Source of the DNA: a virus
Length of the DNA stretch: 21,831 nt
IMG/VR virus record: IMGVR_UViG_3300032288_003799
Span: 1-21,831 of that record
Reading direction: 5' to 3' (one strand)
Part shown: in pieces, positions 15,244 through 20,552 of the stretch
Layout of the letters: every line of letters starts with the position of its first letter
Numbering within the stretch: the first letter of the stretch is position 1
The notes under the pieces: model-generated
Seen by the model: the letters and a program-made list of their open reading frames with translations, nothing else
Told to the model about the DNA's origin: nothing
Databases searched by the model: none
Position numbers and translations under genes: made by a program

Positions 15244-15260
15244 CAAAAACAGAGGCAAAG

Positions 15261-16097
15261 ATGAATGAGCTGGCTCTTTTCGCAGGCGCTGGCGGCGGAA
15301 TACTCGGAGGCCACCTGCTCGGATGGCGAACAGTGTGCGCTGTCGAGTGGGACCCCTATGCCGCAAGCGTATTGTGCGCACGACAAAATGATGGCGTTCT
15401 CCCGACTTTCCCGGTTTGGGATGACGTTCGCACCTTTGACGGCAAACCGTGGCGCGGAATTGTTGACGTGGTTTCTGGGGGGTTTCCGTGCCAAGACATC
15501 AGCTCAGCAGGCAGGGGTGCAGGACTTGACGGAGAGCGATCCGGGCTCTGGCGAGAGATGGCACGGGTGGTTGGCGAAGTTCGACCAAGATTTGTCTTTG
15601 TGGAGAACAGCCCAGCTCTCACTCGCAGAGGGGGAACCCGAGTTATTGGAGACCTTGCCGCGCTCGGGTATGACGCGCAATGGGATGTTATGGGAGCGGC
15701 ACACGTTGGTGCTCCGCATCAGCGAGACAGAATCTGGATTGTGGCCTACTCCAACGACACAAGACAACGCGCAAGTGCGAAAGACAGGAGCTGCGGAAAA
15801 CAAGAAAAAGCGCGGCACCACTTTGGGGGGCGCTGTTCGCATGTATCCAACCCCGCAAGCAAGCGACAACAGGAACCGCGGGAACGCGGACACTCCGGCC
15901 ATTGCCAGAAGAATTGCCGCTGGAAAACAGGTCATGCTCACAATGACGGTCAGTGGTACGCAGTTGAACCCGACGTGGGTCGAGTGGCTGATGGGGTGGC
16001 CGCTCGGATGGACAGACTTAAAGCCATTGGAAATGGACAAGTTTCTGCAGTGGCAGCGGCTTCATTTGAATTGCTGTCTGGAGGAATAAATGTCTGA
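15261..16097 (+). CDS. dcm: DNA cytosine-5 methyltransferase (Dcm family)
   Basis: 278 aa, ATG 15261, AGAGG 6 bases upstream. Motifs appear in order: I, LFAGAGGGILGGHLLGWRTV; II, VEWDPYAASVL; IV, GGFPCQDISSAGRGAGLDG with the catalytic Cys; VI, FVFVENSPAL; VIII, QRDRIWIVAY; and the C-terminal X-like AIGNGQVSAVAAASFELL. The stretch between about 165 and 240 is polar, Cys/His-rich and would be the target-recognition part. Such enzymes methylate cytosine using S-adenosylmethionine, in phages to escape host restriction. A second long ORF (15265-16089) reads nearly the entire gene in the +1 frame. This segment also looks less GC-rich than flanking genes. The gene overlaps the DUF3310 start by 8 bases. 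Confidence 0.92.
   Translation: MNELALFAGAGGGILGGHLLGWRTVCAVEWDPYAASVLCARQNDGVLPTFPVWDDVRTFDGKPWRGIVDVVSGGFPCQDISSAGRGAGLDGERSGLWREMARVVGEVRPRFVFVENSPALTRRGGTRVIGDLAALGYDAQWDVMGAAHVGAPHQRDRIWIVAYSNDTRQRASAKDRSCGKQEKARHHFGGRCSHVSNPASKRQQEPRERGHSGHCQKNCRWKTGHAHNDGQWYAVEPDVGRVADGVAARMDRLKAIGNGQVSAVAAASFELLSGGINV
15265..16089 (+). CDS. Overprinted ORF within dcm, +1 frame (MSWLFSQ-type phage protein)
   Basis: 274 aa, ATG 15265, only 4 bases after the dcm ATG (ATGAATG) and served by the same ribosome site; TAA 16087-16089 abuts the DUF3310 ATG. The product starts MSWLFSQALAAEYSEATCSD, contains LSRFGMTFAPLTANRG and LSLWRTAQLSL, then WPTPTTQDNA and YPTPQASDN segments, and ends LNPTWVEWLMGWPLGWTDLK. 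I recognise this pattern, including the GLWPTP and WVEWLMGWPxGWTDL signatures, from phage proteins, so it is not a random shadow. The role is unknown; it may be a partner of, or be made in place of, the methyltransferase. The full-length two-frame overlap is the notable feature of this locus. Confidence 0.75.
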   Translation: MSWLFSQALAAEYSEATCSDGEQCALSSGTPMPQAYCAHDKMMAFSRLSRFGMTFAPLTANRGAELLTWFLGGFRAKTSAQQAGVQDLTESDPGSGERWHGWLAKFDQDLSLWRTAQLSLAEGEPELLETLPRSGMTRNGMLWERHTLVLRISETESGLWPTPTTQDNAQVRKTGAAENKKKRGTTLGGAVRMYPTPQASDNRNRGNADTPAIARRIAAGKQVMLTMTVSGTQLNPTWVEWLMGWPLGWTDLKPLEMDKFLQWQRLHLNCCLEE

Positions 16098-16305
16098 TGA
16101 AGTTCTGAGCCCAGCTCACTATACCCAAGGCGAGATCGAGTGCATCGACGCCATCAGGGCGCAGCTCACGCCGCAGGAGTGGCGCGGATTCCTGCGCGGG
16201 CAGGTGGCCAAGTACACCTGGCGCCTCGGCCTGAAGGGTGAGCGGGATGCCGAGAAGATTCTGTTTTACGCATCCCTTCTGGCAGGCAAGGACCCGCGGT
16301 CTTAG
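16090..16305 (+). CDS. DUF3310 protein
   Basis: 71 aa, ATG 16090 directly after TAA of the overprinted ORF. The stretch SPAHYTQGEIECIDAIRAQL, followed by FLRGQVAKYTWRLGLKG, matches DUF3310 (SaV-like), found in many phages; its C-terminus RDAEKILFYASLLAGKD fits too. Its function is not settled, although a link to nucleotide metabolism has been proposed. It is the last gene of the rightward operon; its stop overlaps the integrase stop by 4 bases on the other strand. Confidence 0.85.
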   Translation: MSDEVLSPAHYTQGEIECIDAIRAQLTPQEWRGFLRGQVAKYTWRLGLKGERDAEKILFYASLLAGKDPRS

Positions 16306-17264
16306 CCTAGCTTCTCGGCCAGCTCCTCAGCCCGCAGATGCGTATACCGCTTGAGCATCCGGATGTCCTTGTGCCCGGTGATGGCCGCGACTTCCATGAG
16401 CTGCAGGCCGCGCTCGAACAGGCGCGAGGTGGCCTCGTGCCGGAGATCGTGAAACCGCAGGCCGTCCACCTGGGCGCGTTCGCAGGCTTCACGGAATTGG
16501 TGGGTGATGAGGTCAGCGGCTGGGCAGACCCTCCCATCGATGCGGGCCGGCATGTCGGCCAGGGCCTGGAGCGCCTTGGGCGATAGCGGCACCGCTCGAG
16601 CTTCTCCGTTCTTGGTCTGCGGCAGGTAGGCGACGCGGCCGCGGATCCACTCCCGCCGCAGGCTGGCGAGCTCACCTCGCCGCATGGCCGTCTCAGTCGC
16701 CAATATGACGACACCGCGCATGACCAGGTCACACTCGGCCAGGATGCGCCCCTCCTCGCCAGGCTCGAGCCGGCGCTCCCGCGCACGGCCTGGTGATGGC
16801 TTGCGCACGTTGACCAGGGGGTTGCGCAGCCCTTCCATGCCCCACTCAGTGCGGGCAAGCTTGTAGAGGTTCGAGATGGGCGCGAGCTCCAGGCGCACGG
16901 TGTTGGGCGCGACCTCTGCCAGGCGCTCGTCACGGTAGTCCGCGAAATCCGAACCACGGAGGCGTGTGAGCGTTTTTCCGGCTAGGGGGTGCCTCTGCCA
17001 CGCCCGCAGGCGGCGCTCCTCCTGGCGCGCTCCTCGCTTCGCCCTGGTGGCCTCGCGGATGTATCGCTCGATCGCCTGGTGCAGCGTGGTGGTCGAGGCT
17101 TCGCCCTGGTCGACGTATTCGCCGCGGTCGATGGGGCTTTCGATGGATCGTGCCCAGGCTTCGGCCAGGGCTCGGGTGGGGAAGGTCTCGCGCATGGGAG
17201 GGTATCCCTTGCGCCTGATGATGGCCCGGAATTGTCCAGGGCCGCGCTTCTCGATGGTTGCCAT
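16302..17264 (-). CDS. int: Tyrosine recombinase (phage integrase)
   Basis: 320 aa from ATG 17264 (MATIEKRGPGQFRAIIRRKG); the frame is open further upstream to 17312, but that part would cover the first repeat pair. The arm-binding N-domain is within 1-60, the core-binding helical domain within 60-160, the catalytic domain within 165-320. Catalytic residues: Arg in ETAMRRGELASL, Lys in TKNGEARAVPL, HDLRHEATS (His-x-x-Arg), ITGHKD and the Tyr in LKRYTHL. It catalyses integration and excision at the att site next door (17326-17373). Gene and attP adjacent, as usual. It is transcribed against the recombination operon and the two ends overlap, so pL transcription would run into antisense of int. 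Confidence 0.95.
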   Translation of the reverse strand: MATIEKRGPGQFRAIIRRKGYPPMRETFPTRALAEAWARSIESPIDRGEYVDQGEASTTTLHQAIERYIREATRAKRGARQEERRLRAWQRHPLAGKTLTRLRGSDFADYRDERLAEVAPNTVRLELAPISNLYKLARTEWGMEGLRNPLVNVRKPSPGRARERRLEPGEEGRILAECDLVMRGVVILATETAMRRGELASLRREWIRGRVAYLPQTKNGEARAVPLSPKALQALADMPARIDGRVCPAADLITHQFREACERAQVDGLRFHDLRHEATSRLFERGLQLMEVAAITGHKDIRMLKRYTHLRAEELAEKLG

Positions 17265-17271
17265 TCCGTGG

Positions 17272-17289
17272 TGTCCCAAAAGTGTCCCA
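17272..17289. repeat. Paired TGTCCCA direct repeat, left arm of attP
   Basis: TGTCCCA at 17272-17278 and 17283-17289, 11 bp apart. The same pair with the same spacing occurs on the other side of the tRNA core at 17479-17496. Flanking, equally spaced short direct repeats are the signature of integrase arm-type sites. Confidence 0.6.
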
Positions 17290-17325
17290 CGAACCAGGCG
17301 CGCAGTGTGCAAGTGCTTGTTTTCT

Positions 17326-17597: not shown

Positions 17598-20552
17598 CTA
17601 GGTCCGGGTGGCGGTTGCTGCCAGGGTTGCGTTGCCGGTGCTGGCGCGAACGTAATCTAATGCGGGCGGCTGGTATTTCCATGGGTGCGTCGTTGGCAGA
17701 GCGTTGACCGTGCCCCACTTCCAGGCCAGGTATCCCTCAATGCGCTGGCGCAGGTCGGTGCTCGGGGTGCTGCCCACGATAATCACCTCAGCGACCCGGC
17801 CGGAGTAGTGCAGCGTCCCGACGGCTGTGCCTGGTCCGCCAATAGACACGCGGGCGATTGAGAACACGCCGCTGGCGAGCGTGCCTTGCGTCTGGGCGGT
17901 GCCGTTGAACCACTGCTGGATCGTGCGCGCTGTGCCATTGAACAGCCAAGCAGAGACCGCGGCTGTCGTCGCGAGCGTGACATTCGCCCCGGATGCCTGC
18001 GTGTTGCTGGTGTTGCGGATGGCCGCCCCGTATCCCGCCCTGCTGTTGTCCCAGATTGCCGAGTTGGGCAGCGCAGGGTCTCGGAAGTCGAACAGGATGC
18101 TGCCGCCAGAGCGTTGGAAGGCGATGAAGATCGCAAGCTCTGAGAAGTTGGGGCAATCGGCCCACAGCGAAGCATTCGAGAAAGAAAGCGAAGCCGCCCC
18201 GCCGTTGTAGCCTGTGCTGTATGTCGGCTGGTAGGTGGCGTTGGCCTGCACCGCGTGGCGCGCGTTGGGCGTTTTGTCTGACCACTGCGACACTTTCCCG
18301 CTTGTGATCACTACGCTTGAGGTTTCCGAGGAGTCGAACCAATGGGACAAGCTGCCGATCGCCTCCTGCGGGGTCCACGGCAGGCTCAGCGGCGTGAACG
18401 CGAAGGTGTGCTCGTGGAGCTGGAAAGAGTCCAGCCCGTCGCGCACGGCGCGCAGCTCGACGCGCAGGTTGGCCGGGAATGCGTAGTTGAAGGCGTAGAG
18501 CGTGCCGTCTGTAGTCTGGTCCAGGAACTGCGTGTTGGTGTCCGCATCGAACGCGCGCACCCGGTAGGTGGTGCCTGCCTCTGGGCCGATGCTGGCGGCC
18601 TCGTGGTCGAGCACCTGGTCGACTTGTAGCAGGCGGTCGCGGTGCGCCCAGGTCACGGCCACAGAGTTCTCCAGCGCAGTCGGCCACGCCTGGCCATTGA
18701 ACCGCACCAGCCCCGGCGGGTAGGGGCGGAACGCGCGCTGGTTCATTGTCACCGTGGCCACGGGCGCCGAGCCCTCGGCCAGCTTGCCCGTGCCGGTGAT
18801 GGTCACGAACCGCGCCGAGATGACCTCGCCGGAGGTGTACTCGATCTCATCGGCTGCGGCGTGCAGCTCGTAGCTGGTGAACCTGGTGCCGGCTGCCCAC
18901 GCTTTCGGGGTCGTGTCCACACACCCGCGCTTGATGGTCAGCGTGTAGGTGTTGAGGTCCACGGCGGTCACCTGGACGATCTCCGCAGTCGTGCCAGTGC
19001 CCAGCACCGCCAGGGTGTTGACGGCGATCACGTCGATGTCGGTGGCCGCCTGCAGCGTGATGCTGGTGGCGGTCTTACTGATGCCGTTGACCAGGGTGCC
19101 GGTGGGCGCCCAATCGCCCAGCTCGCGGTCGGTGTATGCGGCGGTGCCTGACCTGGTCTGGAGCTGGTAGTTGAACGAGACCGCGTTTGACGGCCTGGTC
19201 GCCACGGCGCCGATGTAACCCTCGGTCGGCCCCACTGAGCCGATCGCGTTGGGACCGAATACAGCGTGCAGGTCGCGGTATGTAACCTCAGCGACCTCGA
19301 AGGATGTCGCCGGCTGCGGCGTAAAGTTGGGCGGCTGCCAGGCAATCGGAGGCGGGTCCGCATAGACCGTGGCCGGCAGCCCGAACACGTCCTCGATGCC
19401 CTCGATGCGAATCAGGCCCGAGGTCAGCGGGCCGTAGTCGATGCGGGTGATGCGCAGGCTGATGGACACGATGCCGGCGGGCTGCCAGGCGAACTGGATG
19501 ACATCACCTGGCACCAGGGCGAAGGCCGAGCGGTTGGCCACGAAGGTGATGCGGGCCAGGCCCGAGGTGGTCGCCTTCAAGTCGCGCATGCCAATCCTGG
19601 CGGCCAGGTTGGCGTTGGGGATGCCAGGGTATTGCCTGGTCTGGCTGACCACGGCGCCCTGCGCTTGGACGTTGCTCAGGTTCTGCACAAAGATCGACGC
19701 ATTCCGCCCGGTGGTCGCGTCGATGTACTGGATGGCGAGCTCGTTCACGTTCTCCGTGTAGGTGGTGCGCTCGATCTTCTCGAGCGTAATCACCTTGCCG
19801 TTCTGGTCATCGTAGAGCTCGAGGCTCGCCGGGATGTAGTCGCCGCGCAAGGCTTTGAGCTTGAAGTATCCGCCGCCTGAATCCTGGCTCAGCACCGCGC
19901 CCGCATGGTCGAGCACGAGCTGGATGAAGTTGTCGAGGCTGTCCTGCTGGGACCACATGATGCACAGCCCGAGGCCCTCGCTGAAGAAAGCATCCGCCGC
20001 GGTCTGGAAGCTCGAGTTGTCGATCAAGCTCGTCGGGTAGCCCATGCCCCAGGACGGGTTCGTCAGGCACTCGTAGATGATGTGGGCCGGGTTGGCCGCC
20101 GTCACCCCGCCGCCCACATTGATGCTGGCCTTGCTTGCGTACCAGACCTGGTCGTTGTGCCAGCCCTTGAGCACGCGCCGGACCCTGGCCGCCCAGGGCT
20201 TCACATAGGGGTTGTTGCACGAGATGAGCCCGCCACGGTAGACCAGGCCCAGCAGGCCACGGTAGGCGGGCTGCGGTGAGCCCTGCTGCGCTTGCAGGTA
20301 GGAGTTGATGCCCTGGGTGGGCTCGCCCATCATCACGTCGAGCGTGCCCTGGATGCCGCCCTCCTTTGACTCGCCGCCGAACAGGTCGGGGCTGTTGATG
20401 GAGATCGCGCCGCTGGCGGTCTGATTGCCTGACCAGGCCAGGCGCTCGCCGACTTGGATCTGCTCAACCGAATCCACCGGCCCGTGGCACATGCCAAAGT
20501 GCAGCCCCAGGTAGTAGCGGTATCCGACGGTAACTGTCTTACTTTGACCCAC
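17598..20552 (-). CDS. J-like phage tail hub / tip attachment protein with C-terminal LamG-like domain
   Basis: 984 aa, GTG 20552 overlapping the preceding stop by 14 bases. The N-terminal region (VGYRYYLGLHFGMCHGPVDS, then LFGGESKEGGIQG; GLLGLVYRGGLISCNNPYVK; IIYECLTNPSWGMGYPTSLI) is typical for phage tail proteins of the lambda J/GTA hub group. Residues 200-450 contain the hub part (LELYDDQNGKVITLEKIERT; FALVPGDVIQFAWQ; IRIEGIEDVFGLP). From about 735 to 945 there is a LamG-like jelly roll (SHWFDSSETSSVVITSGKVS; EGYLAWKWG), often used for host-surface binding. The last residues, GNATLAATATRT, are one diverged copy of the 21-residue repeat of the 918-aa fibre-like protein. It is the host-recognition end of the tail. 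Domain borders are estimates. Confidence 0.85.
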   Translation of the reverse strand: MGQSKTVTVGYRYYLGLHFGMCHGPVDSVEQIQVGERLAWSGNQTASGAISINSPDLFGGESKEGGIQGTLDVMMGEPTQGINSYLQAQQGSPQPAYRGLLGLVYRGGLISCNNPYVKPWAARVRRVLKGWHNDQVWYASKASINVGGGVTAANPAHIIYECLTNPSWGMGYPTSLIDNSSFQTAADAFFSEGLGLCIMWSQQDSLDNFIQLVLDHAGAVLSQDSGGGYFKLKALRGDYIPASLELYDDQNGKVITLEKIERTTYTENVNELAIQYIDATTGRNASIFVQNLSNVQAQGAVVSQTRQYPGIPNANLAARIGMRDLKATTSGLARITFVANRSAFALVPGDVIQFAWQPAGIVSISLRITRIDYGPLTSGLIRIEGIEDVFGLPATVYADPPPIAWQPPNFTPQPATSFEVAEVTYRDLHAVFGPNAIGSVGPTEGYIGAVATRPSNAVSFNYQLQTRSGTAAYTDRELGDWAPTGTLVNGISKTATSITLQAATDIDVIAVNTLAVLGTGTTAEIVQVTAVDLNTYTLTIKRGCVDTTPKAWAAGTRFTSYELHAAADEIEYTSGEVISARFVTITGTGKLAEGSAPVATVTMNQRAFRPYPPGLVRFNGQAWPTALENSVAVTWAHRDRLLQVDQVLDHEAASIGPEAGTTYRVRAFDADTNTQFLDQTTDGTLYAFNYAFPANLRVELRAVRDGLDSFQLHEHTFAFTPLSLPWTPQEAIGSLSHWFDSSETSSVVITSGKVSQWSDKTPNARHAVQANATYQPTYSTGYNGGAASLSFSNASLWADCPNFSELAIFIAFQRSGGSILFDFRDPALPNSAIWDNSRAGYGAAIRNTSNTQASGANVTLATTAAVSAWLFNGTARTIQQWFNGTAQTQGTLASGVFSIARVSIGGPGTAVGTLHYSGRVAEVIIVGSTPSTDLRQRIEGYLAWKWGTVNALPTTHPWKYQPPALDYVRASTGNATLAATATRT

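Follow-up and report, generated by a model that had tools for sequence, protein, structure and literature searches.

The window, which is the whole stretch of DNA analysed here, is a 21.8-kb virus record from IMG/VR (21,831 nt). It contains two open reading frames, termed alpha and beta, that overlap nearly throughout on the same strand (Table 1). The 278-residue alpha protein is a C5 DNA methyltransferase, and the 274-residue beta protein is encoded in the +1 frame relative to alpha. Both ATG codons are located within a single ATGAATG sequence, preceded by a putative ribosome-binding AGAGG at a distance of 5 nt from the alpha ATG and 9 nt from the beta ATG. The respective stop codons lie 8 bases apart. 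This arrangement had been described in an earlier reading of the sequence alone, and its coordinates, frames and start/stop spacing were verified. The beta stop directly abuts the ATG of a DUF3310 gene, which also overlaps the alpha stop; this gene is considered a neighbour that lies outside the enzyme. An integrase and a phage tail protein are encoded in the same window.

Table 1. Features of the alpha/beta locus and neighbouring genes in the window.
Feature	Position	Strand	Basis
AGAGG, putative ribosome-binding-like site	15251..15255	+	Inferred, read from sequence
Twin start ATGAATG, alpha ATG with beta ATG 4 nt 3' of it	15261..15267	+	Conservation of beta ATG
Alpha, C5 DNA methyltransferase, 278 aa, with motifs I-VIII and X, without motif IX (ATG at 15261, TGA at 16095-16097)	15261..16097	+	Pfam, PHROG, M.HhaI alignment
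Alpha motif I (LALFAGAGGG)	15270..15299	+	Sequence; G/F columns invariant in alignment A4
Alpha motif IV (GGFPCQDIS, catalytic Cys)	15477..15503	+	Sequence; near-invariant in alignment A4
Alpha motif VI (ENSP)	15603..15614	+	Sequence; invariant in alignment A4
Alpha motif VIII (QRDRIWIVA)	15720..15746	+	Sequence; HhaI alignment stops just past motif VIII
Alpha residues 178-257, low confidence, probably unstructured, over beta PTP region and motif IX	15792..16031	+	AlphaFold2 pLDDT
Alpha motif X (AIGNGQV)	16023..16043	+	Sequence; G N G Q invariant in alignment A4
Beta, +1 frame, 274 aa, with conserved N-terminal half, PTP segments and motif IX (ATG at 15265, TAA at 16087-16089)	15265..16089	+	phrog_1008, stop avoidance, amino-acid conservation
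Beta WPTPT, first PTP unit of probable target-recognition region	15742..15756	+	Alignment A1; Kampy-type equivalents come after motif VIII
Beta YPTPQ, second PTP unit	15844..15858	+	Alignment A1
Beta motif IX (LNPTWVEWLMGWPLGWTDLK)	15964..16023	+	Alignment A3; match to single-chain Megaera enzyme
DUF3310 gene (ATG at 16090), 71 aa	16090..16305	+	Pfam PF11753, E 5e-15; sequence
Integrase	16302-17312	minus	
Phage tail protein	17598-20552	minus	

Alpha was matched to PF00145 in Pfam (E 6e-35), covering profile positions 4-222 of 324 only, and to phrog_363 in PHROGs (E 7e-69). The alignment with M.HhaI is confined to alpha residues 4-167, corresponding to motifs I-VIII. An AlphaFold2 model of alpha is folded over residues 1-177 and again at the motif X helix, and a Foldseek search with this model returned M.HhaI and M.HaeIII as the best matches. 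The pLDDT falls below 50 over residues 178-257, a low confidence that could in part stem from a shallow, variable alignment with rows from the window and IMG/VR only. This region is probably an unstructured linker, because its DNA is constrained by the beta frame. Motif IX was not found in the alpha frame upstream of motif X, either in the sequence or in alignment A2, and a loose motif IX pattern gave 1 match in the alpha frame among 137 window-type genes and 1 among 77 N15-type genes. The sequence-only reading had taken alpha to be a complete C5-methyltransferase on the strength of motifs I, IV, VI, VIII and X. It is not complete, because motif IX is encoded in the other frame.

Beta was matched to phrog_1008, a PHROGs family labelled 'DNA methyltransferase' (E 7e-27). 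No match was obtained in Pfam or NCBIfam, and a sequence search of the PDB gave nothing. The MSWLFSQAL, WPTPT, YPTPQ and WVEWLMGWPLGWTDLK segments noticed previously were all found in the beta frame. AlphaFold prediction of beta alone did not yield a usable structure (pTM 0.20), a result in keeping with dependence on a partner, although it is no proof of it.

Beta carries LNPTWVEWLMGWPLGWTD with near-complete conservation, and the residues L N P, E W L M G W P and T of the segment are invariant in alignment A3. The motif IX region of HhaI reads TPRECARVMGYPDSYK; alpha has no counterpart. Three findings identify the beta segment as C5-methyltransferase motif IX: a single-chain enzyme, the gene layout of a mycobacteriophage and the span of a profile. 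The single-chain case is found on a Candidatus Megaera plasmid, which encodes an ordinary enzyme (PF00145 over profile positions 2-321 of 324) in which LNPDWVEWLMGYPISWTD / RLNPDWVEWLMGYPISWTD precedes motif X (SLGNAVVP) in the same frame. A blastp comparison of beta with this enzyme gives E 7e-9 at the motif IX segment, and the phrog_1008 profile matches Megaera residues 272-324. The earlier remark that such segments also occur fused behind methyltransferases is thereby borne out. The gp78 protein of mycobacteriophage Kampy ends after motif VIII, and gp77, encoded in the +1 frame, contains PTP units and motifs IX and X; gp77 belongs to the same family as beta (phrog_1008, E 1.7e-79). Finally, a single profile, phrog_116, covers both proteins, with the alpha region at about 206-374 followed by the C-terminal part of beta at about 409-490. 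It was found that motif IX occurs in the +1 frame of 137/137 window-type and 77/77 N15-type alpha genes (214/214, from two distant branches), genes missed by the pattern having been checked by eye.

In the Megaera locus itself (L291, 634-1656), PTPT-type segments precede the in-frame motif IX but lie in the +1 frame, which looks as though the reading frame had been swapped between these segments and motif IX.

Phage overlapping genes often serve other functions, and beta could represent a real overlapping gene whose role lies not in methylation but in, for example, anti-restriction, regulation or host takeover. Its approximately 150 conserved N-terminal residues, for which no homologue of known function was found, would agree with such a role. 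However, the C-terminus of beta corresponds to the one motif that alpha lacks, and beta was always found on alpha in the loci sampled, making a function unrelated to methylation very unlikely. Each of the 80 IMG/VR loci retrieved with beta as the query has the two frames in the corresponding position. Of the roles first suggested for the second product, a partner or recognition factor was the right kind; nothing was found that points to an anti-restriction protein.

The +1 frame of the window gene contains no stops where 4.1 are expected, and 0 of 500 synonymous shuffles reached a value this low. Across 139 non-redundant homologues, 24 stops were observed in the +1 frame as opposed to 731 expected when synonymous alpha codons are shuffled within each gene, a null model that ignores codon-context preferences. 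Nearly all of these 24 stops occur in the most distant homologues. For the +2 frame, the same shuffle predicts 1828 stops and 2260 were observed, i.e. above expectation. Among the 123 closer genes, the 5' half of beta has 1 stop compared with 406 expected, and the 3' half has 0 compared with 232. Pairwise amino-acid identity of beta over the 5' half is 0.545, as compared with 0.353 in the codon-shuffle null. To guard against ascertainment by beta, a second sample of 80 loci was fetched by alpha similarity only; in 80/80 the +1 frame stays open from the start almost to its end, with about 8-24 stops in the +2 frame. A search for homologues combining a broken second frame with an intact methyltransferase had been proposed as a check, and among loci fetched by methyltransferase similarity alone, with the window-type and with the distant N15-type query, none had lost the C-terminal part of beta.

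Single-chain C5-methyltransferases of the same bacterial genomes served as controls, and their observed/expected +1 stops were 22/20.7, 17/18.7, 25/24.6, 29/28.7 and 20/20.0. The longest +1 open run covers 9-38% of the region in nearly all of these controls versus 90-98% in the split-type genes. The beta frame is under strong selection, and both frames are selected. This supports genuine full-length dual coding at the locus, as originally claimed; the accompanying description of such coding as rare needs qualifying, since the layout is common among these phage methyltransferases.

The beta ATG at +4 is kept in 126 of 136 distinct homologous starts, with GTG found in 3 more. In 21 of these loci, no start codon stands at the aligned first position of alpha, which must therefore begin elsewhere. 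In some homologues (L031, L066) there is no ATG at +4, and beta starts 8-35 nt upstream instead. Judging by these sequences, the relative order of alpha and beta starts can apparently switch among homologues. In Stenotrophomonas phage SBP4phi2 (L085, 1494-2258), two stops interrupt the beta frame near its 5' end, after which it is open and conserved. Beta may start internally in this phage (ATG at +130), which suggests that the N-terminal part may be dispensable in some lineages. In locus L072, alpha ends about 816 nt after its start, before motif X, and beta continues to motif IX; the alpha end reflects either a sequencing frameshift or a natural truncation.

Alternatively, the two frames could be joined by programmed ribosomal frameshifting, whereby a +1 shift after motif VIII yields an alpha-beta fusion. 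This is attractive for Kampy and for mycobacteriophage Shida, where gp6/gp5 have a layout like that of gp78/gp77: the +1 ORF carries on from the end of alpha and includes motifs IX and X, such that one shift would complete the enzyme. In the window, by contrast, motif X is read in frame 0 and would be missing from the product of a single shift. Furthermore, the 5' half of beta would never be translated following such a shift, yet it is almost devoid of stops and the ATG at +4 is conserved. The conserved 5' half thus makes programmed frameshifting highly improbable. High-GC genes can have long alternative frames, and the longest-run test, taken by itself, does not reach significance for several high-GC alphaproteobacterial homologues. 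The view that composition and codon bias of the methyltransferase account for the open +1 frame, without any product, is nevertheless barely credible given a stop deficit that is absent from the single-chain controls, a conserved beta start and the lack of any motif IX without beta; a chance open frame is ruled out by the synonymous shuffle together with these controls.

Two-frame loci are found well beyond the window. The distant branch was sampled with an N15/Kagunavirus-type alpha query, giving 80 loci from GTDB genomes that span Gamma-, Alpha- and Betaproteobacteria, Bacteroidetes, Nitrospira, Leptospiraceae, Acidobacteria and Desulfovibrio. Nearly all 80 contain a long open +1 frame ending in a LNPAHSRWLMGFPPEWD-like motif IX. 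For high-GC members of this type, the openness test is weak by itself, and the case rests on motif IX. Relatives of the window pair also occur on a Leptospira plasmid, where the pair is closely related, and on an archaeal plasmid (Methanomethylovorans), where it is distantly related. The layout is conserved in diverse phages and prophages, several bacterial phyla and one archaeal plasmid.

Most phage records examined annotate one frame only. Both overlapping genes are annotated in Escherichia phage fTaEco01 (TE1_031/032) and in a Paenibacillus phage (DevRi_56/57). For the Gordonia phages Geodirt (L177, 2224-3090) and McKinley, the gene annotated as a methyltransferase corresponds to the beta frame. 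The 'DNA methyltransferase' of Geodirt and that of Klebsiella phage PIN1 (L089, 1033-1971) each consist of the beta frame only, with the partner unannotated. The 'DNA methyltransferase' of BUCT711 (L083, 1662-2177) is a truncated alpha, and its partner frame is unannotated. In phage N15 (L176, 1285-2280), gene 58 (DNA cytosine methyltransferase) contains an unannotated +1 frame that is open for ~240 codons and ends in LNPHHSRWLMGLPVEWASC. In Kampy (L174, 2330-2440), conserved beta-type residues (GTFPTSGMTRSG) were observed inside gp78, upstream of the annotated gp77 start; gp77 therefore probably starts earlier than annotated.

M.EcoHK31I was described by Lee, Kam and Shaw in 1995 as a two-polypeptide C5-methyltransferase with specificity YGGCCR, in which the small ORF reportedly overlaps the large ORF in another frame and encodes a short beta of about 176 aa. 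According to PMC3404938, the large subunit of M.EcoHK31I contains motifs I-VIII and X, with motif IX alone on the small polypeptide, and motifs IX and X of M.AquI are both on the small subunit. The window shares with M.EcoHK31I a large subunit with motifs I-VIII and X (as indicated by Pfam, the HhaI alignment, AlphaFold and Foldseek) and, at the sequence level, a motif IX located off the large subunit on a second polypeptide in an overlapping frame (214/214). The locus matches the M.EcoHK31I layout in every feature that sequence can address. It differs in that the window beta is 274 aa long, spans almost all of alpha, starts 4 nt later and has a conserved N-terminal half. As in M.AquI, catalytic motifs and motif IX are on separate polypeptides; unlike M.AquI, motif X of the window is found on alpha (AIGNGQV). 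Kampy and Shida, with motif X on the second polypeptide, are a better fit to M.AquI. The single-chain enzymes M.HhaI, M.HaeIII and that of Megaera contain the same motifs in total, and the Megaera enzyme has the same LNPxWVEWLMGYP motif IX as the window beta; in contrast to the window, all their motifs are in one frame, and the single-chain controls are without an open +1 frame. A further phage DNA methylase gene with a second product hidden out of frame is that of ShiLan, where an inserted homing element encodes an HNH endonuclease (PMC11855218). The locus studied here has no insertion, and its second frame would be part of the enzyme. A hidden HNH homing element was rejected, as there is no HNH match in Pfam, PHROGs or NCBIfam and homologues share the layout without insertion.

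We propose that the locus very probably encodes two subunits of one cytosine-C5 DNA methyltransferase in overlapping frames. Alpha lacks motif IX, which beta carries, and the gene layout and starts are conserved. Alpha would supply catalysis through motifs I-VIII (AdoMet binding, catalytic Cys, ENS motif and QRDR) and motif X. Ribosomes would use both ATGs behind one site, with beta started independently 4 nt downstream. Beta would supply motif IX and the probable PTP target-recognition region, i.e. the small domain absent from alpha. The two proteins would assemble into one active heterodimeric enzyme, in which beta completes the DNA-binding small domain. Such an enzyme could methylate phage or host DNA, presumably shielding phage DNA from restriction.

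Target recognition probably resides in beta by homology to the Kampy arrangement, where the PTP units must include the target-recognition region because everything past motif VIII is on the second polypeptide. Against this assignment, PMC3404938 places the predicted recognition domain of M.EcoHK31I on the large subunit. The overlap may plausibly have arisen by a +1 shift after motif VIII, as in Kampy, with motif X moving back into frame 0 afterwards. The N-terminal half of beta, located over alpha motifs I-VIII, could be a de novo overprinted domain with its own function, for example docking on alpha or setting the subunit ratio via the twin start; we regard this as a real possibility, albeit one that we slightly disfavour.

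Two-polypeptide C5-methyltransferases are already known from M.AquI and M.EcoHK31I (PMC3404938). What appears new is the extent of beta, which covers nearly the whole of alpha, together with the twin start and the breadth of occurrence. For none of these features, nor for the conserved beta N-terminal half, was an account found in the accessible literature, and earlier reports are possible. A 274-codon same-strand overlap with both frames selected, occurring in many phages and prophages, constitutes an unusually strong natural case of dual coding, and one for which the overlap has a testable reason: one enzyme is cut across two frames. The single-chain, M.AquI-like and M.EcoHK31I-like forms can be lined up as an anatomical series that suggests how an overlap of this kind could come about. 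Many phage C5-methyltransferase annotations would then give half the enzyme, and either frame may be the sole one called, as illustrated by Klebsiella phage PIN1 (beta) and phage N15 gene 58 (alpha only). Cloning of one frame may give an inactive enzyme and lead to wrong conclusions on host DNA methylation. If the N-terminal half of beta is indeed an overprinted domain with its own function, the two-frame layout would represent a major type of phage C5-methyltransferase that mostly goes unannotated, as opposed to a one-enzyme curiosity.
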